From positions 154,903 through 218,902 of the IMG/VR virus record IMGVR_UViG_3300042891_000711: a DNA stretch of 64,000 bases. The stretch is one strand, 5' to 3'. The first letter of the stretch is position 1. Each line of letters begins with the position of its first letter. A program made the position numbers and the translations under genes. The notes below the pieces were generated by a model. It worked only from the letters and a program-made list of their open reading frames with translations. It had not been told where the DNA came from and ran no database searches. Below, one piece after another: positions 3,693-37,540 of the stretch. The stretch comes from a virus.

Positions 3693-4521
3693 GGTCTGAC
3701 ACAAAATTAGTTGCAGTAGCTTTGTCATAATGGTGACCATCTCTTGCTAGATCAACCTGTGTCAACTGAATAATATTATTACGAATTGCCGAATCGGTTA
3801 GATGTATGTACTCGTAGTAATCATTATAAAAATCATACGTACTTAACTCTTCTTTAATGTTCACAGGAAGGGAATCAAATTCTAGTTTTGTGCGAGGTGC
3901 AGTGGGCCATGTATCTCCACTAAGTTTTTTCCATTTAATATTGAAAAATTCTTCATTTTCTATACGGTACGCACCAGGAATCATTGAATGAATTAATTTA
4001 GTAGTGGTTACAGCGGTATTAACGGCATCTAAATTTTTATCAAAATTATGTAAATAAACTTTATTATCTAAATCAGTATATGCCAGGCGGCGATTCTCGT
4101 CAATCTTAGTGTCATCTGTGTCTTCAGCTCGTTCAACATAAGTCCACTGGATAATTATACATCGAGGAGTTATAGTTTCTAACAAGCGTAGTACTTTTCT
4201 TGCGATCCAATCATTGCTGGCGCCGTCCATACTAACATTAATACACCGAATGTTAGTTTTATTTTGTAATATGTTTACCCAAGTATGCTCTAATGGGCTA
4301 CCCAATCCTACTGTAAAACTATCACCAAAGCACCATATTGCATCGGTTATGTTATCGGGCCATTCACTGTCTCTGAATCCTCGAGAATTGTAATTGTATT
4401 CAATGGCATAAGGATAAGAATTAAAATGATGTTTATCCGTGCAATATTTCTCAGAATCTATACCAGATTCATTCCATACTTTATGTTGTCTGGTAGTTAA
4501 TATAAAATCTGGTAGTATCAA
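3673..4521 (-). CDS. SGNH/GDSL hydrolase-like protein (copy 1)
   Basis: A 282-residue protein with block I FGDSFTVG near residue 66 (the Ser is the expected nucleophile), block II GASND near residue 100, an IIIQWTYVERAE stretch near residue 125, and a C-terminal DGHHYD segment that would supply the catalytic Asp and His. This is the SGNH hydrolase fold, used by esterases and acyltransferases that add or remove acyl groups on glycans. The GxND block III is replaced by a WT-x-x-x-R-x-E motif shared with the two other SGNH-like genes here. Its start overlaps the carbamoyltransferase stop by ATGA (4518-4521). Confidence 0.78.
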   Translation of the reverse strand: MILPDFILTTRQHKVWNESGIDSEKYCTDKHHFNSYPYAIEYNYNSRGFRDSEWPDNITDAIWCFGDSFTVGLGSPLEHTWVNILQNKTNIRCINVSMDGASNDWIARKVLRLLETITPRCIIIQWTYVERAEDTDDTKIDENRRLAYTDLDNKVYLHNFDKNLDAVNTAVTTTKLIHSMIPGAYRIENEEFFNIKWKKLSGDTWPTAPRTKLEFDSLPVNIKEELSTYDFYNDYYEYIHLTDSAIRNNIIQLTQVDLARDGHHYDKATATNFVSDLMKVIY

Positions 4522-6008
4522 GATAAAACTCGAATTCCGTATAACTGCTCAAAGCGGTCAGCATCTGCACGATCGTTAACCATCGGTTCACCACGTACAT
4601 TTAAACTTGTATTAAGTAACATAGGACAACCTGTCCAAGTATACCACAAGCACAATAGTTCACGTATACCACTGCCATCTCTGGGCACAGTCTGTACACG
4701 ACTTGTACCATCTACATGTATTATAGCAGGAAATTCATCGGGTCGCAGGCACTTTGCAGTTGTTTGCATGTATCTGCTTGTGGCAAATCCGTTGGGCATT
4801 TCAAAATACTCATCAACAAACTCCTCTAGTATTATAGGAGCGAATGGTCTAAACTTCTGTCTACGTTTAATTTGATTAACTGCATCTTTAATGTCAGGGC
4901 CACGTGGGTCGGCTAATAAACTACGATTGCCCAATGCTCTAGGGCCAAACTCTGCACGGCCGCTAGCAACGCCAACGATCTTATTGGTCATTAGCTCAGA
5001 GACAACATCGGTGACAGGATAACTGCCACTAATATTATGGCCAAGAAAAGCATTATTCCAATTAAGTTTACCCCCGTGTGCCAATGCCGCCGCTCCAAGG
5101 CTGCTACCAGCATCACCAGGATTAGGCATAATCCATATTTCATCAAAGTATTCTCCTAGATCTCTATTAGCACTGCAATTAAGAGCAACTCCGCCAGCAT
5201 ATACTAAATTACTATTAGGTGCTAGCTTCTTTGCCTTGTACATAATATTATGTATCAATTGTTCTGTTAATGTCTGTGCCGCATTAGCAATTTCAAAATC
5301 ATTCCAACGAGCTCGCATGTCATTATCGGGTAGACCAATATGTAGATTGTGTTTTAATGTTAGATTAAACTCATGGTCAACTAACCAAGTTGACAGTTGA
5401 TCACTTAGACGTGTGGTATTTTGTTTTGCCCAACCTGCCATACCCATCAAGATGTATTCTTCATCTAGTGGTTTAAGTCCAACTTCTTTAGTAAATGCAC
5501 TGTACATCAAGCCGATGCTGTGTGGATATAGTTGTCGCCATACTCGGGTGTATTCAGCACGGCCATTGACATACTTAGCTGACCATATGCTTATGGTGTC
5601 CCACTCGCCGATGGCATCGATTACCACAACTGTTGCGCTGTCAAACGGGCTAGTTTGAAAGCCGGCCGCTGCATGACTTAAATGATGATTGTATGTATTA
5701 ATCGGAGTAGAACTCAACCACGGAGCGACTTTGTGTATCATGTTGCGCACACTCCAGCCTTTAGTTAGTTCGCTGTACTGGCCAGCATAGAGTTGACGTG
5801 TCTTTTTAACCCAGGGTCTTTCGTAGTAGGCAATTAGATCAGGTTCGCCATGATTAAATATGCAATCTTTAAACAGTTCACTGTTTAAATTTGGATCGTG
5901 TTTAATCTTGCTGTAACGTTCAGCATGGCCCGCAAAGACAATGTCATCGCCTTTGATTAATGTAATTGCTGCGTCATGAAACCCAGCCGAGATGCCTAAT
6001 ATGTTCAT
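4518..6008 (-). CDS. Carbamoyltransferase, NodU/CmcH family
   Basis: A 496-residue protein covering both halves of the family. The N-terminal Kae1/ASKHA-like half starts MNILGISAGFHDAA and contains the metal-site motif NHHLSHAA near residue 107 and VYAGGVALNCSAN near residue 269. The C-terminal YrdC-like half has SGRAEFGPRALGNRSLLADP near residue 350 and RRQKFRPFAP near residue 383. Relatives transfer a carbamoyl group from carbamoyl phosphate to sugar or antibiotic hydroxyls. It overlaps its upstream neighbour by 35 bp and its downstream neighbour by 4 bp, and lies between SGNH-like genes, which points to sugar decoration. The sugar is not known. Confidence 0.93.
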   Translation of the reverse strand: MNILGISAGFHDAAITLIKGDDIVFAGHAERYSKIKHDPNLNSELFKDCIFNHGEPDLIAYYERPWVKKTRQLYAGQYSELTKGWSVRNMIHKVAPWLSSTPINTYNHHLSHAAAGFQTSPFDSATVVVIDAIGEWDTISIWSAKYVNGRAEYTRVWRQLYPHSIGLMYSAFTKEVGLKPLDEEYILMGMAGWAKQNTTRLSDQLSTWLVDHEFNLTLKHNLHIGLPDNDMRARWNDFEIANAAQTLTEQLIHNIMYKAKKLAPNSNLVYAGGVALNCSANRDLGEYFDEIWIMPNPGDAGSSLGAAALAHGGKLNWNNAFLGHNISGSYPVTDVVSELMTNKIVGVASGRAEFGPRALGNRSLLADPRGPDIKDAVNQIKRRQKFRPFAPIILEEFVDEYFEMPNGFATSRYMQTTAKCLRPDEFPAIIHVDGTSRVQTVPRDGSGIRELLCLWYTWTGCPMLLNTSLNVRGEPMVNDRADADRFEQLYGIRVLS

Positions 6009-6522
6009 TGATTACTTCCGCTATTCGTTGATGCCCTAGTTCCAGTGGATGTCCACCCGGTCCTTTTGGACAATCACCCATCCATTCTACTATGCCTTGG
6101 TTTGGCCAGCCTAGCCAACATGATAATCCTGTGTCAGTTGCTTGTTGTTGTATATCAAAGGTACTTACAAACACGTGTGGTATATTGTGTAAATAGGCAT
6201 CTAATAACTTAGTCTGTACTATAAATTTTTTATAAGCCCATGCAGTGTCCCAGTCAGCAAATACACTATTGACTACAGGACCATATTTTTTATAACTAGC
6301 CGATGTTAAATGTTTGCCAGGCAATTCAATACGGTTAGGACTAGTCCATGCTACGATTACATAATCAACTGAATGTGTGTCGACATAGTCAACTGTTGAT
6401 CTAAGTATGTAATCATTACTAGCACCAGGAACACTAATGTTTACAGTGCCACTGATTAAATCAGGCCATGCAACTTCGCTTTCTTCACCTGCGGTAAAAC
6501 TATCGCCATTGACTAAAATCAT
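5974..6522 (-). CDS. SGNH/GDSL hydrolase-like protein (copy 2)
   Basis: A short SGNH-like protein of 182 residues. Block I (VNGDSFTAG) is at residues 4-12 and block II GASND near residue 33. The shared motif VIVAWTSPNRIE follows near residue 60, and a terminal GGHPLELGH gives a catalytic His but a less clear Asp. It is shorter than the 275-282-residue copies because the middle is reduced. Its ATG overlaps the stop of the 33-residue upstream gene as ATGA, and its end overlaps the carbamoyltransferase start by 35 bp. Confidence 0.75.
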   Translation of the reverse strand: MILVNGDSFTAGEESEVAWPDLISGTVNISVPGASNDYILRSTVDYVDTHSVDYVIVAWTSPNRIELPGKHLTSASYKKYGPVVNSVFADWDTAWAYKKFIVQTKLLDAYLHNIPHVFVSTFDIQQQATDTGLSCWLGWPNQGIVEWMGDCPKGPGGHPLELGHQRIAEVINEHIRHLGWVS

Positions 6523-6620
6523 TTATAGATAAAAGGATCGCGTTTACGTAATTCTTTTAATTTTTTACGATAGTTTATTTCTAATCGAATTCTACTGTAT
6601 AAATTCTTTAACCAGTTCAT
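6519..6620 (-). CDS. Small basic phage protein, 33 residues
   Basis: A small gene below usual ORF cut-offs. It starts at an ATG at 6620 preceded by a good ribosome binding site (GGGAG, 7 bp upstream), encodes a lysine/arginine-rich probable helix ending KKLKELRKRDPFIYK, and stops at a TGA overlapping the next ATG (ATGA, 6519-6522). Its first 29 bp overlap the end of the upstream SGNH gene in another frame. The ribosome binding site, coupling and filling of an otherwise unexplained 69-bp gap support a real gene. The function is unknown. Confidence 0.7.
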   Translation of the reverse strand: MNWLKNLYSRIRLEINYRKKLKELRKRDPFIYK

Positions 6621-7419
6621 GATAATTCTCCCGAATATATTTTGCAGCATCAATATGCGCAGGTTCCAACGGATGTGTTGTGCCTATAGGATATTTAAAG
6701 TCTCTTGCCCAGGTATAAAATCCTTGATTATTTGGGAAAGTAATCCAACGATCGAAGTCAATTTGATTGTATAATAATGCTATACTTTCATCATTCATTA
6801 GATGCATACAGTTATTTAATAGTGCTTCATCCACCATTGAAAATATATAGGGTATCTTTCTTAACTGTAGATATTGCTGTAACATAATTATTTCTGTCAG
6901 CGAATTATAAGTTTCCCAATACTGTTCTTTTGATGCACCGATGTGCTTATAAAATGTTTTGGCAAATTCAGTTACGCCTGAACGTTTTGCTCGATTTAAA
7001 TGTGTAACGTGATGTTCGAGTATATCAGGATCATCTGTTTTAAATTCGCGTTTAATATCTTCTATATCATCAATGATTGACCAAGAAGTAAGGTTGTACC
7101 AATTACCCCAACGTTCTTCTGTATCATAATTAAATCTAAATTCGTATCTACCAGGAAAGGTCCATGTCACAATCACTAATCCAACGTCTTGTAATTTTTC
7201 ACAGGCGTTCATCGTAGTCCGACGAATAGCACTGTTACTAAATCCGGGATATGCTGCACATTCATAGTGCATACCAAAGTTTTGGGCTAAGAGTGCCGGG
7301 TAAGTACTTAAACTGACTATCTGATGGGCAGGGTCAGGGTTAGTAGTATCTCTATGAGTAACACTATCGGTTAGTTCACTGCCATAAGTAAAACTATCAC
7401 CGCCTGATAGTAAAATCAT
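6592..7419 (-). CDS. SGNH/GDSL hydrolase-like protein (copy 3)
   Basis: A 275-residue protein with block I SGGDSFTYGSE at residues 5-15, block II PGFSNSAIRR near residue 61, the shared VIVTWTFPGRYEF motif near residue 83, and a C-terminal THPLEPAHID segment holding the putative catalytic His. The same W-T-x-P-x-R-x-E block in the other two copies marks these as paralogues of one SGNH subfamily. Only 1 bp separates it from the upstream gene's stop. Likely an acyl-esterase or acyltransferase acting with the neighbouring glycan genes, by inference only. Confidence 0.75.
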   Translation of the reverse strand: MILLSGGDSFTYGSELTDSVTHRDTTNPDPAHQIVSLSTYPALLAQNFGMHYECAAYPGFSNSAIRRTTMNACEKLQDVGLVIVTWTFPGRYEFRFNYDTEERWGNWYNLTSWSIIDDIEDIKREFKTDDPDILEHHVTHLNRAKRSGVTEFAKTFYKHIGASKEQYWETYNSLTEIIMLQQYLQLRKIPYIFSMVDEALLNNCMHLMNDESIALLYNQIDFDRWITFPNNQGFYTWARDFKYPIGTTHPLEPAHIDAAKYIRENYHELVKEFIQ

Positions 7420-7420
7420 C

Positions 7421-8506
7421 TTAGGATATCCTTAGGATCTGTTGATCTCGATAGTCACTGTCTGACCAATCGTATGTATAAGTTACAGTAGCACTACTAG
7501 TTCGTATGCTGTGTACATTTAAGTGTAGGCCGAGCTGTGCCCATATAACGTTATAGTCTGTTGATCCAAAACTTCTAATTAAATCAACTTGTCCGACCTG
7601 TGGGTGACCAATTGTTAATGTTTTATCTTCTGGATCGAATCCATTGTCAATTAACCATGTTCTAAACGCTTCAAGACTTCGTATTTGCCAATGATATTTG
7701 CCCGGGTCATTGGCCCATTCAATATCAAAGTCTCCGGCGGCTTCTGTTTGCGAACGCAATGTTGTAGTAGTCAATTCATCTATTCTATGCCCTGCTGCGC
7801 CTTCATCTCGAAATACTTCATAATGATGTTTGCCCACTGCTTTGTTGACTCCAGCGAATACACCACCCAGTGGTCGGTTTATGCTGTTAATTCCAAACAA
7901 TTCAAAATCATCTGCATCTAATACAAATCTTGGTGCATTTAACCAACACATTAGCTGACTTGGTCTTCGCCATTCTGGTGCGTGCGCGGCTTTGCGCATG
8001 CTCAACACCAGCGATTCGTATTCATGACATAATAAATTTAATTGTCGAATGTGCCATTTAGTTTGATTATCAGCACGGTTGTAATATTCTGTCATATGGC
8101 CGCTAGTGCCCTGCAGGTCTTCAAAATATCGATGCAATTGATTTAATTTATCATGTATAATCATACCACCTGGTAAATCATCACCTACCGGTCCGGGCAT
8201 TATTGTATTAGCCACTGTGAAATGATCATCAATTTGATAGCCAATATTAGCTTGATTAATTGCAGCAATTGACTGATTCATTTGATCAGTTATATACTCT
8301 GCATTACGTTCAGATTCGATAAAGCCGTGAAAACAATAATTCTTTTCTAAGTGATAGTTATTTTCTACTAGATGATTTAATGCTGATAACCATTTACGAC
8401 TAAGTGAGCTGTCAAATACATCAATGTATACAGTTAACAGTTCGTTGGTTTTATTGTTTTTTAAATCAATTTCAATTTGATCAAGCAATGTTGTTGTACC
8501 ATTCAT
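7421..8506 (-). CDS. Hypothetical protein, 361 residues
   Basis: I do not recognise a family. The protein is soluble, with no signal peptide or membrane segment. Notable stretches are NNYHLEKNYCFHGF (about residues 49-62), a PGPVGDDLPGGMIIHD block (about 104-119), LDADDFELFGINSINRP (about 196-212) and an aromatic C-terminal region. The start at 8506 overlaps the upstream radical SAM stop by 26 bp, and no later Met fits better. Its place between the radical SAM genes and an SGNH gene, with tight coupling both sides, suggests a role in the same pathway. Confidence 0.8.
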   Translation of the reverse strand: MNGTTTLLDQIEIDLKNNKTNELLTVYIDVFDSSLSRKWLSALNHLVENNYHLEKNYCFHGFIESERNAEYITDQMNQSIAAINQANIGYQIDDHFTVANTIMPGPVGDDLPGGMIIHDKLNQLHRYFEDLQGTSGHMTEYYNRADNQTKWHIRQLNLLCHEYESLVLSMRKAAHAPEWRRPSQLMCWLNAPRFVLDADDFELFGINSINRPLGGVFAGVNKAVGKHHYEVFRDEGAAGHRIDELTTTTLRSQTEAAGDFDIEWANDPGKYHWQIRSLEAFRTWLIDNGFDPEDKTLTIGHPQVGQVDLIRSFGSTDYNVIWAQLGLHLNVHSIRTSSATVTYTYDWSDSDYRDQQILRIS

Positions 8507-9770
8507 ATACAGCCGGTCTCTCTTTTAATATGTCTGCTAGCGTATAGGTATCTTTACGTATACTTTCTAATTGTAGCACACGAGCCTTACCTTTTGCAAG
8601 ACTTACTTTATATGTATCTGGCCATTGCTCATCAAACGTTGGTCGTGATTTTAACTGCACAAGTATATCCTGCATAGCACCAGAAGTTTGTGGTATTAGT
8701 TCATCTAGCCAAGGATGTAGTAAGTCGCGTGGTAGTGCCAGCGGACTAAGGATGATGTCAGGGCTAAAGCTAAAAATAACTTTAGCCAAGACATCTACGT
8801 TTTCTTTTTCAGCAAGCTGGGTAATGTTTGTGACTTCAAACATGCCGGGCAGTGTGAGAGTAAAGTCAATTCGCATTTGCCTTCTATGACTTGCTGTTCT
8901 AACTCCTTCACGGAAATTTGCAAGCCATGTATTGTAGTCAAGTCCTGTTCTAATATATTCTCCAATTCGACCAGTTCCGTCGAGGCTTGCACAGATTTGC
9001 CAGTCACGTAGCCCAGATAGAATATCCCTATAGAGATTGATGCCACGATAGTCGACGCGGCTAAGATTTGTATTGTATCTTGCGTAAACATTTTTACCAT
9101 ATCCTAGTTCAACAATGCGTTGCATATAACGCCAATGTTGTTCATACATCAAGGGTTCACCACCCACCCAATATACTTCTTCTACTTGATGATCTTCAAC
9201 TGCTTGAGCAAACTCCTGTTCAATTTGACTATCTTGAAATTTTGATATTTCATTTCTTACTTCGGGCCGCATCCAATTGTTCTTTGGATTATGCCAGTTA
9301 ATCATGTCATATTGTCTTTGTTCAGACTCCCATGCACTGCTTAACATATCACCACACATACGACATTTGAAATTGCATAAGTTACTAAAGCGATAATCCC
9401 AGCTTACAGGACGAAGTGTAGTAGTTCCGTCTGGTTGGGTATTCTCTAGTACTTGCAAATACTTATGGCCAAACAGACTATCAAAATAACTACGGTAAAT
9501 GCTAGTGTTAAGTAATTTGTCATTGCACACTTCGCACTCAGGTAGTGTTTCACCTGCCATCATACGGCGACGTACACTTTTCATGTGTTCGCTATTCCAA
9601 TGTTCTTCAAGTGTAATAGGAATATATGTGCCAGTACCAGCTTTAGTATCTATGTACTGTTCAAAGTTCTGTGCGGGCTCGCGACTAGCACAGCACATAC
9701 GTCGCTCAGTTTGCGGACTAAGATATGTATGTACCCACGGTGCTAGACAAAGTGTACTAGGCTTCGACAT
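8481..9770 (-). CDS. Radical SAM protein with N-terminal twitch-like domain
   Basis: A 429-residue radical SAM enzyme. The [4Fe-4S]/SAM motif CNFKCRMC is at Cys132, 136 and 139, followed by the GGEP motif (WVGGEPLM). Upstream, an LAPWVH block, paired CC, an R-x-x-M region and a terminal C-x-x-C form a cysteine-rich half-domain like the SPASM/twitch auxiliary cluster domain but placed at the N-terminus. Such proteins often modify peptides or carbohydrates by radical chemistry. It overlaps the upstream tandem radical SAM gene by 14 bp. The substrate is unknown. Confidence 0.9.
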   Translation of the reverse strand: MSKPSTLCLAPWVHTYLSPQTERRMCCASREPAQNFEQYIDTKAGTGTYIPITLEEHWNSEHMKSVRRRMMAGETLPECEVCNDKLLNTSIYRSYFDSLFGHKYLQVLENTQPDGTTTLRPVSWDYRFSNLCNFKCRMCGDMLSSAWESEQRQYDMINWHNPKNNWMRPEVRNEISKFQDSQIEQEFAQAVEDHQVEEVYWVGGEPLMYEQHWRYMQRIVELGYGKNVYARYNTNLSRVDYRGINLYRDILSGLRDWQICASLDGTGRIGEYIRTGLDYNTWLANFREGVRTASHRRQMRIDFTLTLPGMFEVTNITQLAEKENVDVLAKVIFSFSPDIILSPLALPRDLLHPWLDELIPQTSGAMQDILVQLKSRPTFDEQWPDTYKVSLAKGKARVLQLESIRKDTYTLADILKERPAVYEWYNNIA

Positions 9771-12312
9771 AGCCCATTGCTACAGCAATCTCTCTATGAG
9801 TAGTTAACATACTCTGCTCACGGTATGCGTCTGTCTGTTGCATCTTATGTAGGAATTCTGTGCCATCACTACCACCACCATTTTCGATAAATTGAATTAT
9901 CTTATCAATTTCAACTCGATGCTTAACATTAAATGGATAAGCAGATAATCTATCAATTACTAACTTTTGTGCATCCGTTGTCATTCGATTGATACACATA
10001 ACACTCGGGTCATGCAACATATTAAAATGCACCATATCAAATTGTTGAGTATTAACCCAGTCACATAGCTCGGGCAGATAATAAACATTTTGTATGTTAA
10101 CGGTCATGCAAACCTGTGTCTGAATTAAATTAGTTTTCATGGCATTAAATTTTATAACATTAGTTTTTACTTCTTCCCACACAGCACCATAGCGTTCGTA
10201 TTCAAAACGTGCTTCGGTATTATCAATACTAACTGCAATTTCAACATTTCTAAATTTACTCCATAAGGCAACTTCTTCGTCGCTTGGGTATACTGTACCG
10301 TTAGTATTATAGTGTATATCAATACGTTTACTATATCCATGCTCAACTGCATAGCGTAATAGTTTAAAATGCTCTTCGATTAGGAATGGTTCGCCGCCTG
10401 TGAATTCAAAGTACTTAATGTTTGGTAATAGTTCTTTTAAATTTTCCCAAAATACTTCGCTTTCCCTCGGCCAGGTTCCTTCTTGTAGGAACATATATGC
10501 ACCGTGTTGTTTACGGTCATATCCCTGCACGTCTTTATATTTTCTAGCTTCGTAATCAATTTCTTCTTTAGCCCATTTACTGCTACTCCATGATCCGCAT
10601 ATACGACATTTAAGATTACAGATGTTGCCTAGTTTAAGATCAATGAACCAAAGTTGATCCGGTGTATCATTACGCCAATCAACTATTGGATAGAATTCTT
10701 TAAGTCTAATTCTGCTGTTGATACGTTTACTAACTATGCCCGCATCTTCTTCACTCCAGCAACGATTGCATGTACTAGGCTTTTCACCTCGACGGAATTG
10801 TTGGCGCAGGTCCTGCATGTATTCACTATTGTAAATTTCAGCCAAGGAGCTTTCTCTAAGTTTATACGGAGTACCATCGGGTTTAGTAATTTCATCTTTA
10901 GCCAGACAACACGGACGGGCTGTGCCGACTGGACTTGCTTCAATACTGACCCACGGCAACATACAGATATTATCATGTGTCTTATTGATTCCCAAATGGT
11001 CTCTCAACTCTTGATATTCTGGAAACACTTCTTCGAATGTTTCTTTTCTAAACTCATCGGTTTGATCATTTATCTTAAAAAATTCTTTTAATAAATGGCT
11101 CTTATCGTCTTGATACATAAATGTGATAATAGCTCGATAACCCGATATAGCTCGTTGTAAATGATCCTGTGGGTCAAGCCAAGCAATATGTTCTTCAACA
11201 CGTTGCTTAATTCTATCTTTAAACTGAATTGGTAATACATCGATTCGATCACGTTCTGGACTTTGTAGAATGTTAACATTCCAATCCATTGCTTTAATTA
11301 AGCCAAGTTCAACCCATTCTTTATGAAATTCAGTTAAATGCCAAGCATTAAGTATACTAACTGTACTGCTGACATAAAAGTCAACTTTAGGACAAATTTC
11401 AATCATTTTGCGTCGATTTTCTACTGTTTCTGCCCAGTCTGTGCCCTTGCGGATGTATTCTCCGCGAAGATATGAATCATCTAAACTAGCACCCACACTT
11501 ACTACATCAAACAGTTTCCAATATTCAAATACCATCTTATCTTTAAGACGTATGTGACTGAAGTTTGTGTTGTAGATTAACCTAACATGGAACATTTCAC
11601 GCTTAACCAGTTCTTCTAATATGCGATAATGTTCTTCCATGATTAATGGCTCGCCGCCGGCAAAGTAAATCTGTTCTAGATAGGGAATGTGTTCCTGCAT
11701 CTGTTCCCACATGTCATCTTTATTTTTACCTGCAAACATAATCTGCGGATGATTTAATTTACCGAATAGTTTAGTTTCTTCTGCAAACCAACTACTGCTG
11801 AATAAACTACCACAAGTACGGCAACTAAAGTTACATAGATTACTAAAACGTACATCATAGTAGCGTAGTTTAAAGTCATCTAAACTACCGTCGGCATTAG
11901 TTTTATCTGCTAAGGCAATATGATGTCCAAAGTTCTTATTTTGACTGTTGCGCATCGAAAAGAATCCGTTGTCTTCTTGTTCGTAACAACGTGTACATTC
12001 TTTACTGGGTTTATCCTCTAACATATTTAGACGCATCTGTTTGTATGGGGTTCCATTCCATACTTCTGCCATGGTATTCTCTTTGAAGTTACCAATCGGC
12101 AAATGCATTTCACCTAAACAACATGGATATGCACGACCATCGGGAATTCCATGCATGTGCGTCCATGGTATCATACAGAAGTGCTTGCTTTCTATTAGTT
12201 TATATGTTTGATCTTCTGTTAACTCATCTTCATGTATATACACAGGTTTACGTGTATTGTAATTGTGATTTTTATGATGTACAGTTAATTTTTTGCTTGG
12301 CTCATCGCTCAT
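9757..12312 (-). CDS. Tandem (double) radical SAM protein, two complete twitch-radical SAM modules
   Basis: An 851-residue protein made of two full copies of the module seen in the neighbours. Module 1: MIPWTHMH and CC near residues 46-63, CNFSCRTC at Cys160, 164 and 167, and FAGGEPL. Module 2: MLPWVSIE and CC near residues 450-470, CNLKCRIC at Cys565, 569 and 572, and FTGGEPFL. Each module also has the C-x-x-C of its N-terminal cysteine-rich domain. Both active sites keep all three cysteines, so both are probably functional. A fusion of two complete radical SAM enzymes is unusual. It starts with an ATGA overlap to the upstream radical SAM gene. Confidence 0.9.
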   Translation of the reverse strand: MSDEPSKKLTVHHKNHNYNTRKPVYIHEDELTEDQTYKLIESKHFCMIPWTHMHGIPDGRAYPCCLGEMHLPIGNFKENTMAEVWNGTPYKQMRLNMLEDKPSKECTRCYEQEDNGFFSMRNSQNKNFGHHIALADKTNADGSLDDFKLRYYDVRFSNLCNFSCRTCGSLFSSSWFAEETKLFGKLNHPQIMFAGKNKDDMWEQMQEHIPYLEQIYFAGGEPLIMEEHYRILEELVKREMFHVRLIYNTNFSHIRLKDKMVFEYWKLFDVVSVGASLDDSYLRGEYIRKGTDWAETVENRRKMIEICPKVDFYVSSTVSILNAWHLTEFHKEWVELGLIKAMDWNVNILQSPERDRIDVLPIQFKDRIKQRVEEHIAWLDPQDHLQRAISGYRAIITFMYQDDKSHLLKEFFKINDQTDEFRKETFEEVFPEYQELRDHLGINKTHDNICMLPWVSIEASPVGTARPCCLAKDEITKPDGTPYKLRESSLAEIYNSEYMQDLRQQFRRGEKPSTCNRCWSEEDAGIVSKRINSRIRLKEFYPIVDWRNDTPDQLWFIDLKLGNICNLKCRICGSWSSSKWAKEEIDYEARKYKDVQGYDRKQHGAYMFLQEGTWPRESEVFWENLKELLPNIKYFEFTGGEPFLIEEHFKLLRYAVEHGYSKRIDIHYNTNGTVYPSDEEVALWSKFRNVEIAVSIDNTEARFEYERYGAVWEEVKTNVIKFNAMKTNLIQTQVCMTVNIQNVYYLPELCDWVNTQQFDMVHFNMLHDPSVMCINRMTTDAQKLVIDRLSAYPFNVKHRVEIDKIIQFIENGGGSDGTEFLHKMQQTDAYREQSMLTTHREIAVAMGYVEA

Positions 12313-13661
12313 AAGGTGTCGTACCAGTTAGTTAATTGTGTAAATGTATATTTAAAGTCTTTGCCTCGACGTTGGTCGTATTGCTGATAAAATTGTTTAA
12401 AATCGTTTTGTAATTTAGGCAAATCAAATGCTTCAGCATGCGGAATATCTACCATGGTCAAATATTCAATTAGTCGTTTAATGTGCTCAAATTCGTGCTC
12501 ATGAAATACTGTATTCTTATTATTGTTAGCTAAAAAAGTTTCAAGTTCTAAACTATATTTTTTACGTAGTTCTAAGGGTAATATTAAAGGGCTTTGGAAA
12601 CTTGGAAAGCGCAGAATATTTAGAGTAAACGACAATGAATCACGTCCGTATTTCTCTTTGAGTTTCATTATATTGTACAAAAATTCACTGAGGCTTGATA
12701 AACACAGGGCATTGATTGTGCCCATGATATGCACGCCGCGCACCTGTTTGGATTCTAATAGAAATACTAAATTTTTGACCCATTGTTTCCATTCTAATCC
12801 ATCACGTATATACTCTGCTTGTGCGCCCATAGCTTCGTTACTGGTGTAGATATCAAGTTCGATACCCTGTGTGCTATCCAGCAAGCGTTCGAGTACATCA
12901 CGTTTAAAGCCAAGATTACTATTGATAGCTAGGCGTGTAGTACTGGCACCTTTATGTTCTTTAAACCAATCTATTAGACGCCATGTATAACCCGACATCA
13001 AGGGTTCACCACCTGTGATGCGCAGTTCTTTTAACGTCTTGTGTAGGTCTGTTTCCCACCACTTAAAGAACGCTTCCACATAAGGATTAACTTCATTGAG
13101 TGTGTAAAGTTGACTACTATCATGAACATGAGTAAAGTGATTCCTACCGTCTGATACCAAGTTTGTGTAAGCACCATTTGTTTTAATATCTCTGACCCAG
13201 GCGCTACTAAAAGCAGGATTGCAGTAACTACAAGCAAATTGACAAGTACGGTCAAAAGAAATTTCCAATGTCTGCAGATCCACGTCTTGGTCCGCGGGTA
13301 AATTATATGCATAATCTAAATCCTCATCTTTATAAATTACAGTTTTGTACACACGGTCACTGACTGCCGCTGTGCCCATGTCTTCAATCTTCCAGCAGTA
13401 TTCACAGCCCGCGGGTCGTTCACCTTGTTGCATCATACGACGTTCTTCTTTCTTACGTATGCTGTTGTGCAGGGCTTTGGGATTAGCAGCAATATCCTCA
13501 AGTGACACTTTGTGCGGTAGTGGATGATGACAGCTAGTAGTCATACCCGAACCCAACCATATAGTAGCATTGTACCACTTGGCCGCACAGAATGATTCTG
13601 ACTTAATGTCAATTACTCTACGCTTGTATTCTAAGTCTGTTTCGTTATTAATTTTCGGCAT
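12309..13661 (-). CDS. Radical SAM protein
   Basis: A 450-residue protein with a CxxxCxxC motif (CQFACSYC, Cys140, 144 and 147) and RITGGEPLM. The N-terminal cysteine-rich region differs from the two previous proteins: FCAAKWYNATIWL replaces the PW-H block, and a C-H-H-P signature replaces CC, ending in CEYCW. It is closest in layout to the next gene (13648-15030), with which it shares HHP/YHP, CEYCW/CSYCW and P-x-F/Y-S-x-x-W blocks. It overlaps that gene by 14 bp. Likely a paralogue working on a related step. Confidence 0.9.
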   Translation of the reverse strand: MPKINNETDLEYKRRVIDIKSESFCAAKWYNATIWLGSGMTTSCHHPLPHKVSLEDIAANPKALHNSIRKKEERRMMQQGERPAGCEYCWKIEDMGTAAVSDRVYKTVIYKDEDLDYAYNLPADQDVDLQTLEISFDRTCQFACSYCNPAFSSAWVRDIKTNGAYTNLVSDGRNHFTHVHDSSQLYTLNEVNPYVEAFFKWWETDLHKTLKELRITGGEPLMSGYTWRLIDWFKEHKGASTTRLAINSNLGFKRDVLERLLDSTQGIELDIYTSNEAMGAQAEYIRDGLEWKQWVKNLVFLLESKQVRGVHIMGTINALCLSSLSEFLYNIMKLKEKYGRDSLSFTLNILRFPSFQSPLILPLELRKKYSLELETFLANNNKNTVFHEHEFEHIKRLIEYLTMVDIPHAEAFDLPKLQNDFKQFYQQYDQRRGKDFKYTFTQLTNWYDTL

Positions 13662-15030
13662 GATATTTGCATTCGTTCCAAAATTCTCGCATCTGTGGGA
13701 ATATGTCTGTAAAATGTCCTATGTCAGTTTCGTATGCGCCGCGACGTTTATCGTATTCGCTAAAGAATCGATAGAAGTCCGCACGTTGTAGTGTAACATA
13801 CTTTGCATCTAACTTGCTACCATCTCGCATCCAAAGTAAGTTGCGTTCCATACGCTGTATTTCATAATCTTTAAAGCCAACAAAACTATCGTTGGGCATT
13901 AGGTTAGCCCGCATAAATGCTATAACATCTTCTAATACTGTCTGGTAACTTGCTGGAAGTATCTGTAAACTTTGCCAAGTTGGACTACGTAGTAAAGGTG
14001 TATCAAACCAAACACGTTGATAAGTTTCGCTATACAATTCACGTTGATCTAATACAGTCTGCAATAATTGTTTTAGTCCTAAAATATTTAAATTACTCAT
14101 CGTGATGATATAGGTTAGGCTATTGCGATAAGGTATATGTGTAAGATAACGATGTACATATGAATTTACTCTATGTTGATTTAAACCACGACGAATATAC
14201 TCCGACTGTCTGGTGTCACCCGAATCTAAACTAACATACTGCATAAAGTGTTCGATGCGTTCACCTTCGCATAGCTGTTTTACTTTGTCTAGATACTTGT
14301 CAAACAGTTCAGGCTCGACACTAAAGTTACTGGTTACATCAACGTGCAAGTCACTCTTAGGCAAGGCAAGTATGTAGTCAAACACACGATGCGTATTCTT
14401 ATCCATAAGTGGTTCGCCACCTGTCATACGGAAGTGTTTTAGTTTAGGATATAGTTCAGGCCACCAAGACCAAAATGCATCTACATAAGGATTTTCTGCA
14501 CGTACTGGAATTGGCTTACGTCGACCTTCAAAATGTTCAGGCGCATTGTGCGGAGTACTAGTTGGATATGCTCCCCATCGGTCAATATCTGTACCCCACT
14601 TAGTACTGTACTGCGGACTGCAATAGCTACATGCCAAATTACAGCCATGACTGAAGTTTACTTCTACATAACTTGGCGTAACGTCCTGATCCCAAGGTGC
14701 ATTAACTATAGTTTCGTAGTGTTCAGCAGCCCATGGTTCGCCACTGCGATAATGCCTATCGCTTAGTTGCTGGTTATCTTCTGCACTCCAACAGTAGCTG
14801 CATTCTGCCGGACGTGTTTGCTCTAGCATAAGTTTACGTTGCTGTTTCTTATAGTCAGTATTGTGTAAGGCACTGGGATTGAATAGTAATGGTGCGCTAT
14901 CAATTTCATGTAAAGGCGGATGATAACAACTGTTAGTTAAGCCCGTTGGTAAATGTAGACTTACCTGTTGCCACTTAGCCAAGCAGAGTGCCGGACCTAA
15001 CTTGTCCTTCATTTCTTCTGCGGCAGACAT
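13648..15030 (-). CDS. Radical SAM protein
   Basis: A 460-residue radical SAM protein with CNLACSYC (Cys130, 134 and 137), FRMTGGEPLM, an N-terminal LAKWQQVSLHLPTG block, the C-Y-H-P variant of the cysteine pair and CSYCW. Start choice: the frame extends to a GTG at 15075, inside the upstream gene, but the ATG at 15030 gives MSAAEEMKDKLGPALC and leaves a 7-bp gap after the upstream stop, so it is preferred. It is paralogous to 12309-13661 and is the first of four consecutive radical SAM genes in transcription order. Confidence 0.88.
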   Translation of the reverse strand: MSAAEEMKDKLGPALCLAKWQQVSLHLPTGLTNSCYHPPLHEIDSAPLLFNPSALHNTDYKKQQRKLMLEQTRPAECSYCWSAEDNQQLSDRHYRSGEPWAAEHYETIVNAPWDQDVTPSYVEVNFSHGCNLACSYCSPQYSTKWGTDIDRWGAYPTSTPHNAPEHFEGRRKPIPVRAENPYVDAFWSWWPELYPKLKHFRMTGGEPLMDKNTHRVFDYILALPKSDLHVDVTSNFSVEPELFDKYLDKVKQLCEGERIEHFMQYVSLDSGDTRQSEYIRRGLNQHRVNSYVHRYLTHIPYRNSLTYIITMSNLNILGLKQLLQTVLDQRELYSETYQRVWFDTPLLRSPTWQSLQILPASYQTVLEDVIAFMRANLMPNDSFVGFKDYEIQRMERNLLWMRDGSKLDAKYVTLQRADFYRFFSEYDKRRGAYETDIGHFTDIFPQMREFWNECKYHAEN

Positions 15031-15037
15031 GAAATTA

Positions 15038-15934
15038 CTACTCACGTGACATTGGGCCTCGGTTTTTAAACACACTTTTGTAGTGATGTTTAAAGAATCT
15101 ACTTTGATCAGCTGTGAAATGTGGAGCAGGTAATCCTAGTTTTACGCTTAATGTATGTGACATTTCACTACATTCTTCTACTAGATTATATACTTTATGT
15201 TGATGCCATATATTGTTTAGTGCATCGAAGTCCTGCACTTCTCTATAATCCCAATCTGTAATCATAGTCATGTATGTGCCTAGTTTAGCACCGTACATGG
15301 CCCAGTCACCGTTCTCTACATCTATGCCCACATTGTGCCATATGCTTAGATGATCATAGTTACGTTCGTGTACACGTTTTTCAAATTCTTGTAGTGTAGG
15401 TTTGGCACCACGATCCAAACACATCTTAACACCTTCTCTAAAGCCAGCTCGCCATGCTTGATAAGGACTTTGATTTGGATATGTTGTGCTGTAGCAATCA
15501 TTCATTGCCCAATATCGTGGATCAAAACAAAACTCAACTGCGGTATCATCTGCACCATCGCTGGCTTCGTGTGTACGCATATTGTTTACAAAATCCTTGG
15601 TCCAGCAACTCATACCACCATTGCCGTACATAAGTCCGTTGATAATGTTACGTGCTTTCCAACGGAATACTACATCTCGATTAGTATCATCCAGTGTAAG
15701 CTGTAGGTTAAAGAACTCTGGATCGGGTAAGTTATCACCATCTATTAATACAAAGCGTTCAGTATCACTTGCGGCGGCCGCGGCTTTATGTGCAGCATCA
15801 CTGCCCTTGACACCGTCTACTCGTTTAGCCCACGGCACCATGTTTTGAATTTTAATCCAAAACTCTTCTTTTTTAGGTTCATCGTAACTTAGGTAGATGC
15901 AGTCTAAATCTGCAATATCAACGATTTGTGTCAT
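15038..15934 (-). CDS. Glycosyltransferase-like protein (GT-A-type)
   Basis: A 298-residue protein. An N-terminal CIYLSYDEP strand is followed by a basic KRVDGVKGSDAAHKAA segment and then RFVLIDGDNLPDPEFF, whose DGDN is the position of the metal-binding DxD of GT-A glycosyltransferases. The second half is rich in aromatic residues (RYWAMNDCY, SIWHNVGIDVENGDWAMYG). Relatives occur in T4-like aquatic phages. It overlaps the upstream small gene by 17 bp and directly precedes the radical SAM series. Donor and acceptor are not predictable from sequence. Confidence 0.68.
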   Translation of the reverse strand: MTQIVDIADLDCIYLSYDEPKKEEFWIKIQNMVPWAKRVDGVKGSDAAHKAAAAASDTERFVLIDGDNLPDPEFFNLQLTLDDTNRDVVFRWKARNIINGLMYGNGGMSCWTKDFVNNMRTHEASDGADDTAVEFCFDPRYWAMNDCYSTTYPNQSPYQAWRAGFREGVKMCLDRGAKPTLQEFEKRVHERNYDHLSIWHNVGIDVENGDWAMYGAKLGTYMTMITDWDYREVQDFDALNNIWHQHKVYNLVEECSEMSHTLSVKLGLPAPHFTADQSRFFKHHYKSVFKNRGPMSRE

Positions 15935-16274
15935 AGTATTCTATATCCTGGTAGGTGTCAGTTGATTCTATTATTAGTCCTGCATGTTTCTTTACAGTAG
16001 CGTAGCCTGTGATACTACTAGTTAATTGTACACGATAACCCGGGTTGTTGTCAATCTTTTTTAGACGGCAGTCTACAATTGTATAGCGGAAATAATTCTC
16101 ATATTCATCTTGACTAACAACAACATACTGCGTATCTGCTGGGTGGTTCATCATTGTACACATTGTAATGATTCCAAGTTCATTGTAGTGTAATCTATAT
16201 TCTTTAACTTCTTCTACAGTAGGTTTGAGCATTGCCAATGCTTTTTCAAATTCACTTAAAGAGTTCATGTTCAT
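15918..16274 (-). CDS. Hypothetical protein, 118 residues
   Basis: No family is recognised. A predicted helical N-terminus (LSEFEKALAMLKPTVEEVKEY) is followed by a likely beta-rich part with TMMNHPADTQYVVVS, EYENYFRYTIVDCRLKK and GYRVQLTSS. Two start codons six bases apart (16274 and 16268) are both possible. It overlaps the glycosyltransferase-like genes on both sides, so it is translated with them, and may be an accessory subunit; that role is inferred. Confidence 0.72.
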   Translation of the reverse strand: MNMNSLSEFEKALAMLKPTVEEVKEYRLHYNELGIITMCTMMNHPADTQYVVVSQDEYENYFRYTIVDCRLKKIDNNPGYRVQLTSSITGYATVKKHAGLIIESTDTYQDIEYYDTNR

Positions 16275-17109
16275 ACTCCTTGACTAATTGATCCGTTACC
16301 CAAGACTTTTCATGATAGTGAACGGGGTGATATTGATTGGTGTTTGCTATGCGTATCATTGGCAGTTCTGTTTCACACATGACTAACTCGGGCCAGGGTG
16401 TACTAGTCCATGCATTAATTGCTGGCTTCATATGCACAAAATTAATAAAGTCTAGGCTAGGTAGTGTACAATCTTCTACACCAAGTAACTTTGCAGCTAG
16501 AGCATAGACAACATCAGTAGTGGGATTATCATCACGGCAGTTAAGTAATACATTGTCACGTATGTAGGCCCAATTTTTAAATATTTGTTCTGCTAAGGCA
16601 AAGAATTGCGTAGCTTCACGACTGTATCTAAAATACATTAGCCCATTGTAGGTATCGGGCAATTCATTATCGTCAAATAACTTTCTGTATTCTCGTGATA
16701 CGCTTAACTCCTGCTGATAGTTTCTACAGCCGGTGCTTAGTACAACATTTTTTAATCTAAAAGCAGTCCACCAATGTGCAATACTTCTAGTGAATACAAT
16801 GTCACTTTCAAGTTTAATTGTTTCTTTGAATGGAGTGAGATAAAATGCCTGCCATTCATTTGATAACTTCCATGTTTCGTTTTCAGCTAGGTCATTCTCA
16901 ATAGTAACAACATAATCAAACACCCGTCGATGTTGTTCTGTTATCTGTTCAAGTGTATGTTTATCAACTGCTACTGCGTATAAACTATCAGGCATGGTCA
17001 GTTTAATACTCATTGCTTGCACGTAAGCAAGCTGTAAGTAATCAACCTCTGTGGTATTCTGCGCAATGGTCATAAAACCCTGCTGTGCTTGATGTGGTGT
17101 TATGCGCAT
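16252..17109 (-). CDS. Glycosyltransferase-like protein (GT-A type, DxD)
   Basis: A 285-residue protein resembling GT8-like enzymes: an N-terminal strand and a YLQLAYVQAMS helix, AVDKHTLEQI, then LTPFKETIKLESDIVF, where ESD stands at the metal-binding DxD position. Later regions include VVLSTGCRNY and GLMYFRYS. It shares its plan (V/VDYLQLAYVQA, L-(T/S)-P-x-x-ET-I-x-L-(E/D)-SD) with the next upstream gene, so the two are probable paralogues. The overlap with that gene is 10 bp. Confidence 0.68.
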   Translation of the reverse strand: MRITPHQAQQGFMTIAQNTTEVDYLQLAYVQAMSIKLTMPDSLYAVAVDKHTLEQITEQHRRVFDYVVTIENDLAENETWKLSNEWQAFYLTPFKETIKLESDIVFTRSIAHWWTAFRLKNVVLSTGCRNYQQELSVSREYRKLFDDNELPDTYNGLMYFRYSREATQFFALAEQIFKNWAYIRDNVLLNCRDDNPTTDVVYALAAKLLGVEDCTLPSLDFINFVHMKPAINAWTSTPWPELVMCETELPMIRIANTNQYHPVHYHEKSWVTDQLVKEYEHELFK

Positions 17110-17876
17110 ACTGTATCTACCAACTGATTAAAATTTTCACTAAGCAAATAATCTTTATCCATCACGTGTATGTTTTGCAGGGCAATGACATGTGCAGAAT
17201 TTTCTTCGCGTATAATCATCTTTTCGCCCGTTATTTCAATGTTTTTAATTAGTTTATCCAGGGTTAACATAGTCCAAGGTATACTTTGTGTGGTGTTAGT
17301 AGTGTACCCATTAATGATGTTGTTAGCAATAGCAAACGCATAATCATTGCGGAAATTACGTTCTCTTAAGTGATATAGTTTTTGATAGTAAGCATAGTTA
17401 CGTTCAATACGACCAACTAAATCAAATAACATTTGTGTTTTATCTGTACGCTTAAATGTTATAGCAGTTGCCCATACATAATCTAAACTTAACTGACCCA
17501 TGTTGCCCGACATTGACTGTTCAGGGCTTTGATTATTGTGCATTAACTTATAATCAACTGTTGTATCAAGTATAGTTAATAAACTTGAGTCTAACTGTAG
17601 ATAGTCACTGTCAAGTAAGATAGTTTCGTCATAAGGGCTAAGTTCGTATGCACGATATCTACCACCATTCTTCCATTCTGTACCACCAGCATAGCCAGTG
17701 CGATAGTTAGCTAAACTAGGTACGCCCAGATCTGTGATAATGGTAGTAGGTAAGTTTAATGTATGTTTTATTAGTCGTGCGGCTTGCTCAGCGATTCTAA
17801 CATAATCAACTGTGGCAGTGTTAACAGCAAATAGTACAACACCTTTAGACTTTGCGGGCACGTCGAATTTCTTCAT
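17100..17876 (-). CDS. Glycosyltransferase-like protein (GT-A type, DxD)
   Basis: A 258-residue protein with GVVLFAVNTATVDYVRIA at the N-terminus, LPTTIITDLG, and YELSPYDETILLDSDYLQL, in which DSD is the expected metal-binding DxD of a GT-A fold. A GNMGQLSLDYVWATAITF segment follows. It is similar in layout to the downstream 16252-17109 product. The start overlaps the upstream gene by 32 bp. It is the first glycosyltransferase-like gene after the early promoter at 18210-18238. Confidence 0.7.
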   Translation of the reverse strand: MKKFDVPAKSKGVVLFAVNTATVDYVRIAEQAARLIKHTLNLPTTIITDLGVPSLANYRTGYAGGTEWKNGGRYRAYELSPYDETILLDSDYLQLDSSLLTILDTTVDYKLMHNNQSPEQSMSGNMGQLSLDYVWATAITFKRTDKTQMLFDLVGRIERNYAYYQKLYHLRERNFRNDYAFAIANNIINGYTTNTTQSIPWTMLTLDKLIKNIEITGEKMIIREENSAHVIALQNIHVMDKDYLLSENFNQLVDTVCA

Positions 17877-18162
17877 ATTGAATATGCCATGCGTTCATTA
17901 CTTGTTGATAGTGTTGCTGACACAATTCTAAAAATGCTAGTCGTTGTATTTCTATAGGATTTTCGTAGGTATCTTCAAGATATAGTGTATCAGCAGTCCA
18001 AGTTGATAGGAATGCTATAAGTTCCGGTGTTACTTTAAAGAGTCCATTGTTATACGGAACATGTAAGTCCGTTTGTATTTTTTCTTTAAGTATGCGTTTG
18101 TTGGTTTGATAATCCGTTGCTTGTTTAATTTGAGCAACTAGTTGAGTAATTTCTGTTGTCAT
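17845..18162 (-). CDS. Conserved phage protein of unknown function, 105 residues
   Basis: A mostly helical protein: MTTEITQLVAQIKQATDY, then KRILKEKIQTDLHVPYNNG, a VTPELIAFLSTW block, EDTYENPIEIQR and QQHYQQVMNAWHIQYEE. The pattern resembles a small conserved protein near fibre genes in aquatic T4-like phages. The longer frame starting with TTG at 18195 would begin in the hairpin loop, so the ATG at 18162 is chosen. No strong ribosome binding site is seen. It is the first gene after the sigma70-type promoter, with a leader of about 40 nt. Confidence 0.75.
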   Translation of the reverse strand: MTTEITQLVAQIKQATDYQTNKRILKEKIQTDLHVPYNNGLFKVTPELIAFLSTWTADTLYLEDTYENPIEIQRLAFLELCQQHYQQVMNAWHIQYEEIRRARKV

Positions 18163-18177
18163 AATAGTAATTAGCCA

Positions 18178-18209
18178 TAAAAATAGGTAAGTCAAAATAA
18201 CTTACCTAT
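18178..18209 (-). terminator. Terminator-like hairpin after the structural operon, overlapped by a promoter
   Basis: A perfect 10-bp inverted repeat (18183-18192 with 18200-18209, stem ACTTACCTAT), a 7-nt loop and, in minus-strand RNA, a run of five to six U. It lies 30 bp past the stop of the last structural gene. The -10 box of the next promoter abuts the hairpin. Confidence 0.7.
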
Positions 18210-18238
18210 AGTATAAGACATTTGTATTAAGTTGTCAA
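18210..18238 (-). promoter_or_regulatory. Strong sigma70-type promoter of the accessory block
   Basis: Read on the minus strand: TTGACA (18238-18233), 17 bp, TATACT (18215-18210). Transcription should begin near 18203, inside the first arm of the terminator hairpin, so transcripts from this promoter lack the full stem. The palindrome could also be a repressor site. Confidence 0.8.
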
Positions 18239-19180
18239 CTAAGTTATAGTTGGTGTACCCCATGCATTAGTTGTAAGATACGTTGATTCTGGGTATACAA
18301 CGTCAACTGCCATTCTGTAGGTTAAACTTAATGTGTCATTCCAGGTTTTGTCAGCAACAGTGAACACAGTGCGGAAAACTACGTTTAATCCGTTTGAGCC
18401 GTTAGTAGTGTCACTACTGCTTGTATACACTTGTAAATACCCAGTGCTTGCTGTGTAACTTGCTGTGGTATCAGTTACTTGCACTATAGTAGCCGGTGTG
18501 TTAAGTACGTTAGTTCTATAACCAAGTGCTGTATTGTTGGTATTTAAGGTAATACCAGACCCAGTGCGTCCTGTGTTCGTGGTATTTCTAAATCCAACAC
18601 CGCCTAGGCCAGTTACTAGTCTAGCAAAACTACTTTCTGATCCGTTGTCAGCCGCATTAAGTGTGCTTAGTCGTAAATTTAATTGGCCACCAGCATTAAA
18701 GAAATAGCGTGCTTGATTGGCGCTGCCAAATGTCACTACACGGTCTACTGTATAACTACTTAAACCTGTTGAACCAGTTACTGATGCATCAAAGTTGGCG
18801 CCAGTTAGTGTAGAACCTTGCGCACTATATAAAGCCGCATTTGTATTAATTGTTGTTACCGCTGTTGCTACGTTGGCAAAGTATGTAATAGTTTGTCCGG
18901 CAGTATAGTTACCACTTAATTGTGCGCCGGCACCACTTTGATGTCCCAATGCACCATTAAGTAGTGTTAGTAATCCACTCCATTGTGTGGCTGTTACAGT
19001 TGCGGCAGCTGCAACTGTATTAATAGCAGTAACAGTTTGACCATATCCTGTGGCACCTGTGCCTACACCCATAACATACGCAATGTTTTTAGTAACATTG
19101 GTATAGGTACCCTGGGTACCGCCCCATGCTAGGTTGTTATAGTCTGTTGCTGAAATTAATCCACCTGATGCGTATGCCAT
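18239..19180 (-). CDS. Virion structural protein, probable tail fibre component
   Basis: A 313-residue protein rich in Thr, Ala, Gly, Asn and Ser with almost no charged residues, typical of phage fibre and adhesin proteins. The N-terminus (MAYASGGLISATDYNNL) resembles other phage fibre-type proteins, and a TVDRVVTFGSANQARYFFN stretch near residue 155 precedes a beta-rich C-terminus ending in VYPESTYLTTNAWG. It has a good ribosome binding site (AAGGA, about 8 bp upstream), is 10 bp from the upstream fibre gene, and is the last gene before the terminator. Confidence 0.75.
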   Translation of the reverse strand: MAYASGGLISATDYNNLAWGGTQGTYTNVTKNIAYVMGVGTGATGYGQTVTAINTVAAAATVTATQWSGLLTLLNGALGHQSGAGAQLSGNYTAGQTITYFANVATAVTTINTNAALYSAQGSTLTGANFDASVTGSTGLSSYTVDRVVTFGSANQARYFFNAGGQLNLRLSTLNAADNGSESSFARLVTGLGGVGFRNTTNTGRTGSGITLNTNNTALGYRTNVLNTPATIVQVTDTTASYTASTGYLQVYTSSSDTTNGSNGLNVVFRTVFTVADKTWNDTLSLTYRMAVDVVYPESTYLTTNAWGTPTIT

Positions 19181-37532: not shown

Positions 37533-37540
37533 GTATTTAA
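37533..37540 (-). promoter_or_regulatory. Probable late promoter (TTAAATAC) of the giant gene
   Basis: TTAAATAC followed by TATATAACAC on the minus strand, 26 bp before the ATG at 37506. The stop codon of gp6 lies inside the motif. Confidence 0.5.

Follow-up and report, generated by a model that had tools for sequence, protein, structure and literature searches.

What does a bacteriophage make with a row of radical S-adenosylmethionine (radical-SAM) enzymes encoded next to its tail fiber genes? We addressed this question in a 64,000-nucleotide stretch of viral DNA, here called the window, which spans positions 154,903-218,902 of the 218,902-base IMG/VR record IMGVR_UViG_3300042891_000711, and in which four overlapping minus-strand genes encode five radical-SAM domains. 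These genes would supply the catalysts at the center of a biosynthetic operon with its own transcript, which runs from about 18.2 kb to 4.5 kb in window coordinates and lies immediately downstream of the tail fiber genes of a T4-like myovirus. Our tentative proposal is that this module may both make and tailor an unusual glycan whose destination is a structural protein of the phage, most probably its tail fiber.

Four genes and five radical-SAM domains

To place the genes we compared them with NF033640 (N_Twi_rSAM, 'twitch domain-containing radical SAM protein'), whose curated NCBIfam cut-off is 170 bits. All five domains score above it over essentially the full profile, with E 2e-81 or better for the four proteins.

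13648..15030, minus strand: radical-SAM gene 1, 460 aa, C-H type, N-terminal twitch domain; 274 bits
12309..13661, minus strand: radical-SAM gene 2, 450 aa, C-H type, in a clade shared with gene 1; 294 bits
9757..12312, minus strand: radical-SAM gene 3, 851 aa, two complete twitch plus radical-SAM units; 717 bits in two stretches
10975-12312, minus strand: N unit of gene 3
9757-10986, minus strand: C unit of gene 3; taken singly, the two units of this gene score 394 and 335 bits
8481..9770, minus strand: radical-SAM gene 4, 429 aa, CC type; 290 bits

Gene 1 is read from the ATG at 15030, which is the start used in relatives and the end originally predicted for the gene; its open reading frame (ORF) opens at a GTG at 15075, and the resulting N-terminal extension is missing from most relatives. 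By the same kind of comparison the 851-aa gene 3 is a fusion of two genes, because most relatives carry two separate ones.

Relatives came from a viral-contig scan with gene 1, which gave 399, the best 80 of which were kept, and from a scan with gene 3, which gave 29 loci. In every radical-SAM unit a one-cluster (twitch) domain lies at the N-terminus, with four invariant cysteines, C...C...CxxC, ahead of the core; in the N unit of gene 3, sequence and alignment give the pattern C-x12-G-x4-CC ... CxxC. Pfam SPASM matches this region at the N-terminus of the gene 3 product and, weakly, gene 4. The CxxxCxxC motif is invariant in all five domains across all relatives of each, and the cluster-ligand cysteines are kept in every one of the 60-76 distinct viral-contig relatives per unit: all seven in gene 1 (76/76), those of gene 2 (75/75) and gene 4 (64/64), and the CxxxCxxC together with the four N-terminal cysteines in the two gene 3 units (65/65 and 60/60). 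The sole departures are the second cysteine of the CC doublet (kept in 55/60 for the C unit of gene 3) and cysteines outside the clusters. The ratio of nonsynonymous to synonymous substitution (dN/dS) is 0.06-0.14 against a relative at 66-87% identity; judged by these comparisons, the five domains are under purifying selection with their ligands intact.

The original prediction, made from the letters alone, had described four overlapping genes, five domains with complete CxxxCxxC motifs and a cysteine-rich half-domain at the N-terminus, and had expected the ligands to survive in close relatives; all of this is borne out. Its division of the genes into two pairs of paralogues fared less evenly. 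In a tree of 86 rows all five units cluster with their respective counterparts in related phages, and genes 1 and 2 share one C-H clade with 100/100 support, so that the C-H/Y-H-P pair stands. The three CC units (gene 4 and the N and C units of gene 3) occupy separate deep clades, and the CC type is, on this tree, three distinct lineages and not a pair.

The solved protein most closely related to the twitch domain is BtrN, whose homology to the N unit of gene 3 was detected by sequence profile (E 1.5e-9); the C-terminal twitch of BtrN (176-257) aligns with profile positions 29-107, which are N-terminal in the phage protein. We also predicted gene 2 with AlphaFold2 (AF2), obtaining a confident model (predicted local distance difference test, pLDDT, 90.3; predicted template-modeling score, pTM, 0.87). 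Its Foldseek matches in the PDB (E up to 0.001) are radical-SAM enzymes including anSMEcpe, viperin, BlsE, MoaA and SuiB, with low TM-scores of 0.28-0.38 by query length and most alignments spanning about 270 of the 450 residues. No solved PDB structure found in this search spans the whole arrangement of gene 2.

A fixed gene order and its partner genes

Co-conservation was counted in 44 related viral loci with full flanks, which were picked by similarity to gene 1 and represent one lineage, with identity down to about 65%. Gene order is fixed throughout, with variable genes inserted between: genes 2, 3 and 4 each occur in 44/44 loci and gene 1 in 43/44, in keeping with the original expectation that the set would be co-conserved in related phages. 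The remaining features of the region are as follows, all on the minus strand and with fractions giving presence in these loci.

19191..20648, minus strand: tail fiber protein with Peptidase_G2-type C-terminal domain (PHROG 19602 E 5e-10, PF11962 E 1.2e-6); 44/44
18239..19180, minus strand: probable tail-fiber-region protein upstream of the module, no family match; 44/44
18210..18238, minus strand: sigma70-type promoter, TTGACA-17-TATACT, 11/12 consensus
18183..18209, minus strand: hairpin followed by a T run, terminator-like, in the gap between the 18239 and 17845 genes
17845..18162, minus strand: small conserved protein, first gene of the transcription unit; 42/44
17100..17876, minus strand: probable GT-A-like protein (LLDSDY motif only, no profile match); 44/44
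16252..17109, minus strand: probable GT-A glycosyltransferase (LESD motif; weak matches to Mannosyl_trans3, E 0.03, and glycogenin, E 0.17); 44/44
15918..16274, minus strand: conserved 118-aa protein, no usable database match; 39/44
15038..15934, minus strand: conserved GT-A-like protein (DxD-type LIDGDN motif; weak PF13641 match, E 0.057); 43/44
7421..8506, minus strand: conserved protein, 361 aa, overlapping gene 4 by 26 bases; 42/44
6592..7419, minus strand: SGNH-hydrolase-like protein (GDSF and HP....H blocks invariant in relatives, weak DUF6071 match); 36/44
5974..6522, minus strand: second SGNH-like protein (weak DUF6071 match, NGDSFT motif); 34/44
4518..6008, minus strand: NodU-type carbamoyltransferase (Carbam_trans_N, PF02543, E 3.4e-38; Carbam_trans_C, PF16861, E 1.3e-47; PHROG 1601 E 2.9e-96); 29/44, a count lowered partly by locus ends
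3673..4521, minus strand: third SGNH-like protein, accessory (GDSL E 0.0095); 1/44

The module appears to be set off from the genes before it. Its core genes overlap, with negative median gaps, and the only gaps above 50 bases are one of 64 between the 18239 and 17845 genes and one of 72 between two SGNH genes. The first of these holds the promoter, whose exact pattern is expected 0.1 times in the window, and the hairpin. At the same gap a promoter of at least 10/12 recurs in 34 of 61 distinct relatives, where first-order Markov resamples give 2.5, and a terminator in 38 of the 61 against 2.0 expected, these relatives not being independent of each other; at four other gaps both counts are at chance. 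Since promoter and terminator recur in the gap after the 18239 gene, the module is probably its own transcription unit with a host-type promoter, set apart from the tail fiber genes. The T4 late promoter TATAAATA has four sites in the window, fewer than chance, and none in the module; three of the four TATAAATA sites lie close upstream of ORF starts (57999 on the minus strand, 58054 and 60719). The first gene of the unit is taken to start at the ATG at 18162 by comparison with relatives, its ORF opening at a TTG at 18195.

Among the flanking genes, which the original prediction had read as three glycosyltransferase-like genes upstream and SGNH and carbamoyltransferase genes downstream, the identity of the predicted carbamoyltransferase is certain from its two domains, and the SGNH reading depends on GDSF and HP..H motifs and weak profile matches. 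The three glycosyltransferase-like proteins carry DxD-type motifs, and their assignments are weak by sequence. The 15038-15934 protein is 66-72% identical in many relatives; the identity of the 16252-17109 protein stays weak because a profile-profile comparison with a GT8 glycosyltransferase of Vibrio phage K566 gave no match. No transmembrane helix was predicted in any module gene of the window by a simple hydropathy scan, and the 18 of 75 relatives of gene 2 that cross the threshold were taken as noise for a radical-SAM barrel. Variable inserts in relatives encode DegT, UDP-sugar dehydrogenase, epimerase, hexapeptide acyltransferase, AMP-binding and extra SGNH and radical-SAM enzymes. Several relatives also carry NUMOD3-type homing-endonuclease-like genes in or near the module (L018:7924-8574, L021:1623-2300, L103:12524-13240).

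The 361-aa partner at 7421-8506 gave a confident AF2 model (pLDDT 81.6, pTM 0.83). Nothing in the PDB matched this model at E<=0.001; in BFVD nine viral matches were significant, all of them phage proteins. A distant paralogue lies at 37935-38804 of the record (E 1.5e-14), one gene away from the NF033640 member at 39433-40749. Because the paralogue thus lies near another member of the family, a functional link between 7421-type proteins and N-twitch enzymes gains support.

The family across the record and in other genomes

The whole record encodes 12 radical-SAM domains, eight of them in the NF033640 family, with three further family members outside the module at 29.9, 39.4 and 53.0 kb. Other radical-SAM domains include two with a B12-binding domain and one with a C-terminal SPASM domain, and the same genome encodes an A-type Fe-S carrier. 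Sugar-nucleotide enzymes adjoin the far end of the cluster at record 151755-153829, beyond the window: a DegT sugar aminotransferase (E 1.3e-84) and an NAD-dependent epimerase (E 1.6e-40). The cluster closes with an 872-aa protein (record 153810-156428, its start-proximal part at window 1-1526) built of repeated 'FDF.W..EPWQ' type units; it has no Pfam match, and its relatives reach about 1170-1210 aa. Structural-region genes of the window comprise the tail fiber at 19191-20648, a baseplate wedge at 37537-40920 and the portal at 60719-62434, and a 4370-aa tail-region protein occupies 24394-37506, with marginal domain matches including a carbohydrate-binding module (E 0.009).

A betaproteobacterial-type permuted transfer-messenger RNA (tmRNA) gene lies at record 42915-43321 (L011:4915-5321; beta_tmRNA 97.7 bits, tmRNA_permuted 111 bits), and four of ten related large contigs have tmRNA matches, three of them above the gathering score. 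The tmRNA type suggests betaproteobacterial hosts. In two related phages an N-twitch radical-SAM gene lies immediately next to the tmRNA gene (records G002 178664-179998 and G004 180859-182168).

Family members above the cut-off were found in 12/12 phage records tested, with 5-12 matches each, and in 0/14 named control genomes. Three distant loci (L042, L043, L046) hold 9 to 11 members close together, and the KVP40-type phage phi-pp2 has two adjacent members under the cut-off (126 and 117 bits). Bacteria carry such enzymes as well. One contig of Bacteriovoracaceae UBA6144 (L131) has a tight group of eight N-twitch radical-SAM genes, among them relatives of genes 1, 2 and 4; its flanks look like ordinary chromosomal genes, with no obvious glycosyltransferase. 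The uncultured Elusimicrobia bin-0981 (L132-L147) has N-twitch genes on many contigs, some encoding proteins fused to long tetratricopeptide repeat (TPR) arrays (966-1078 aa), and clustered near an apparent asparagine-synthase-type gene. In Bdellovibrionia and Myxococcales loci a NodU-type carbamoyltransferase lies beside N-twitch enzymes, a suggestive pattern drawn from few cases.

Possible products and known systems

How could these proteins act together? In the host cytosol the five N-twitch units, the three glycosyltransferase-like proteins, the SGNH proteins and the carbamoyltransferase would share one pathway. SAM would be split at the CxxxCxxC cluster of each radical-SAM unit, giving a 5'-deoxyadenosyl radical that would abstract hydrogen from a carbon of the sugar. 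The auxiliary twitch cluster would bind the substrate or oxidize it, as it does in BtrN, an aminocyclitol dehydrogenase. Different units might perform oxidation, epimerization or deoxygenation at different positions; assembly of the glycan would fall to the glycosyltransferase-like proteins, with carbamoyl and acyl groups added last, and the phage A-type Fe-S carrier could help to load the clusters. A sugar pathway is reasonably supported by the predicted gene content, and of the glycan or peptide modification system originally proposed it is the glycan type that the surrounding genes indicate. The sugar as substrate, the individual reactions and a virion protein as acceptor are steps that we infer.

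The proposal that the glycan ends on the virion has on its side, from sequence comparison, the family, the ligands, the constraint, the fixed order, the module's own promoter and terminator, the lack of a membrane protein and of room for a precursor, the nearby sugar-nucleotide genes, the carbamoyltransferase, the sugar-type inserts in relatives, the twitch match to BtrN, the A-type Fe-S carrier and the independent case of Vibrio phage K566. Several observations weigh against it. With a promoter and terminator of its own, the module is not simply co-transcribed with the proposed fiber acceptor. The three upstream genes are glycosyltransferase-like by weak sequence signals, and N-twitch enzymes of bacteria are often found singly in non-glycan settings: single-copy homologues have mixed neighborhoods that are not clearly of glycan type, with GT2 glycosyltransferases making up 5/97 neighbors. 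TPR-fused N-twitch forms could equally suit protein substrates, and the A-type Fe-S carrier occurs in only 3/12 records tested. Whether borne on a glycan or placed on tail fiber residues, a multi-step modification of the phage's own particle by the five radical-SAM units and the 7421-type partner is possible, and we put it forward with caution; we know of no virus shown to carry such a radical-enzyme modification of its own particle.

The same glycan chemistry could instead place its product on the host surface polysaccharide, or replace part of it, changing receptors and excluding other phages. This reading has been published for the glycosyltransferases of the equivalent tail fiber island of pelagimyophages, for which O-chain modification is proposed (PMC7029224). 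A host-type promoter would be compatible with expression ahead of the late genes, and sugar-nucleotide genes are present. Phage seroconversion (Gtr-type O-antigen conversion) systems, however, normally require a membrane flippase and a lipid-linked glycosyltransferase, and the hydropathy scan and gene content of the module in the window revealed no flippase, polymerase, lipid-linked glycosyltransferase or predicted membrane protein. We regard host-surface modification as less likely and prefer virion decoration mainly because of the missing membrane components and the tail fiber neighborhood, the separate promoter counting against this preference. Many SPASM/twitch enzymes work on peptides, and the radical-SAM units might act directly on residues of a phage protein, for example by backbone epimerization, crosslinking or hydroxylation of the tail fiber, with the glycosyltransferase-like genes working in parallel. 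The protein- and peptide-modifying enzymes anSMEcpe and SuiB among the matches of the gene 2 model, the protein recognition suggested by TPR fusions in the Elusimicrobia bin, and a conserved tail-region protein that always adjoins the module fit such a role, yet the best twitch match is an aminocyclitol enzyme, the partner genes are of sugar type, there is no space for a precursor peptide, and sequence profiles linked neither of the small conserved proteins to a solved recognition protein of ribosomally synthesized and post-translationally modified peptide (RiPP) systems. Direct residue modification seems improbable to us. Least credible, and very improbable, is action on nucleotides, nucleic acids or cofactors, as in viperin-like chain terminators or queuosine-type base changes, with glycan-type neighbors by chance: the cores do resemble viperin, QueE and MoaA weakly, but such matches fall far under family cut-offs (at most 47 bits against 180 for the viperin family NF038283), and the order with glycan-type genes is fixed in the 44 loci.

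Two specific identities were considered and set aside. A RiPP system would need a precursor-sized gap, and the module, with overlapping core genes and largest gaps of 64 and 72 bases, has none; two small conserved proteins match no RiPP recognition element (RRE) or PqqD-like structure by profile, a method that can miss RREs. A viperin or queuosine enzyme was rejected since the similarity is at the core level only.

With its fixed partners, the conserved operon offers a specific hypothesis about the substrate and delimits the proteins involved. If radical chemistry does decorate virions, it would give a phage a new means of altering its receptor-binding surface or of escaping host defenses, and would be a source of new sugar-modifying enzymes.

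How does the module compare with known systems? The claim that it is undescribed in phages is not supported, given the curated family NF033640 and two reports of radical-SAM genes in T4-like viruses. The first, from 2017, counts 12 radical-SAM genes, together with a gene for an A-type Fe-S carrier, in TARA_ERS488813_N000010, a marine viral genome of T4-like type (PMC5332604); the present record is likewise T4-like, with 12 radical-SAM domains and an A-type carrier, whereas the text on that genome gives counts only, without module, partners or function. The second, from 2020, describes radical-SAM cassettes and glycosyltransferases in the tail fiber 'host recognition cluster' of pelagimyophages (PMC7029224). 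That cluster and the present region are both hypervariable islands with sugar genes on the tail fiber side of the structural region of a T4-like phage, the glycosyltransferase genes here being weakly identified. In pelagimyophages, which infect SAR11, the radical-SAM genes are described as cassettes that were added; the phages studied here keep all five domains across relatives while other genes vary, and they carry a betaproteobacterial-type tmRNA. Within the open-licence literature searched, no paper was found that describes this module or gives it a function, nor was a known reaction found for the NF033640 family, whose name carries no biochemical function. Relative to that family in general, all five domains qualify as members, and five copies lie in one conserved operon with two of them fused. 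Compared with the twitch radical-SAM enzyme BtrN, the twitch is N-terminal here and C-terminal there, as if permuted, as known here from the sequence profile. In Vibrio phage K566, four N-twitch radical-SAM genes are interspersed with two GT8 genes and one that is GT4-like; two of the four exceed the NF033640 cut-off, and the others score 142 and 154 bits. Its radical-SAM/glycosyltransferase island is an independent case, with about 23% identity, a different arrangement of genes and, among those examined, none encoding a 7421-type protein; an annotated PagP-type lipid A acylation protein (L187:5230-5679) lies near it. The family and the wealth of radical-SAM genes in T4-like phages were thus already known; what we did not find in the two papers is the fixed five-domain module, its own probable promoter and its partners.

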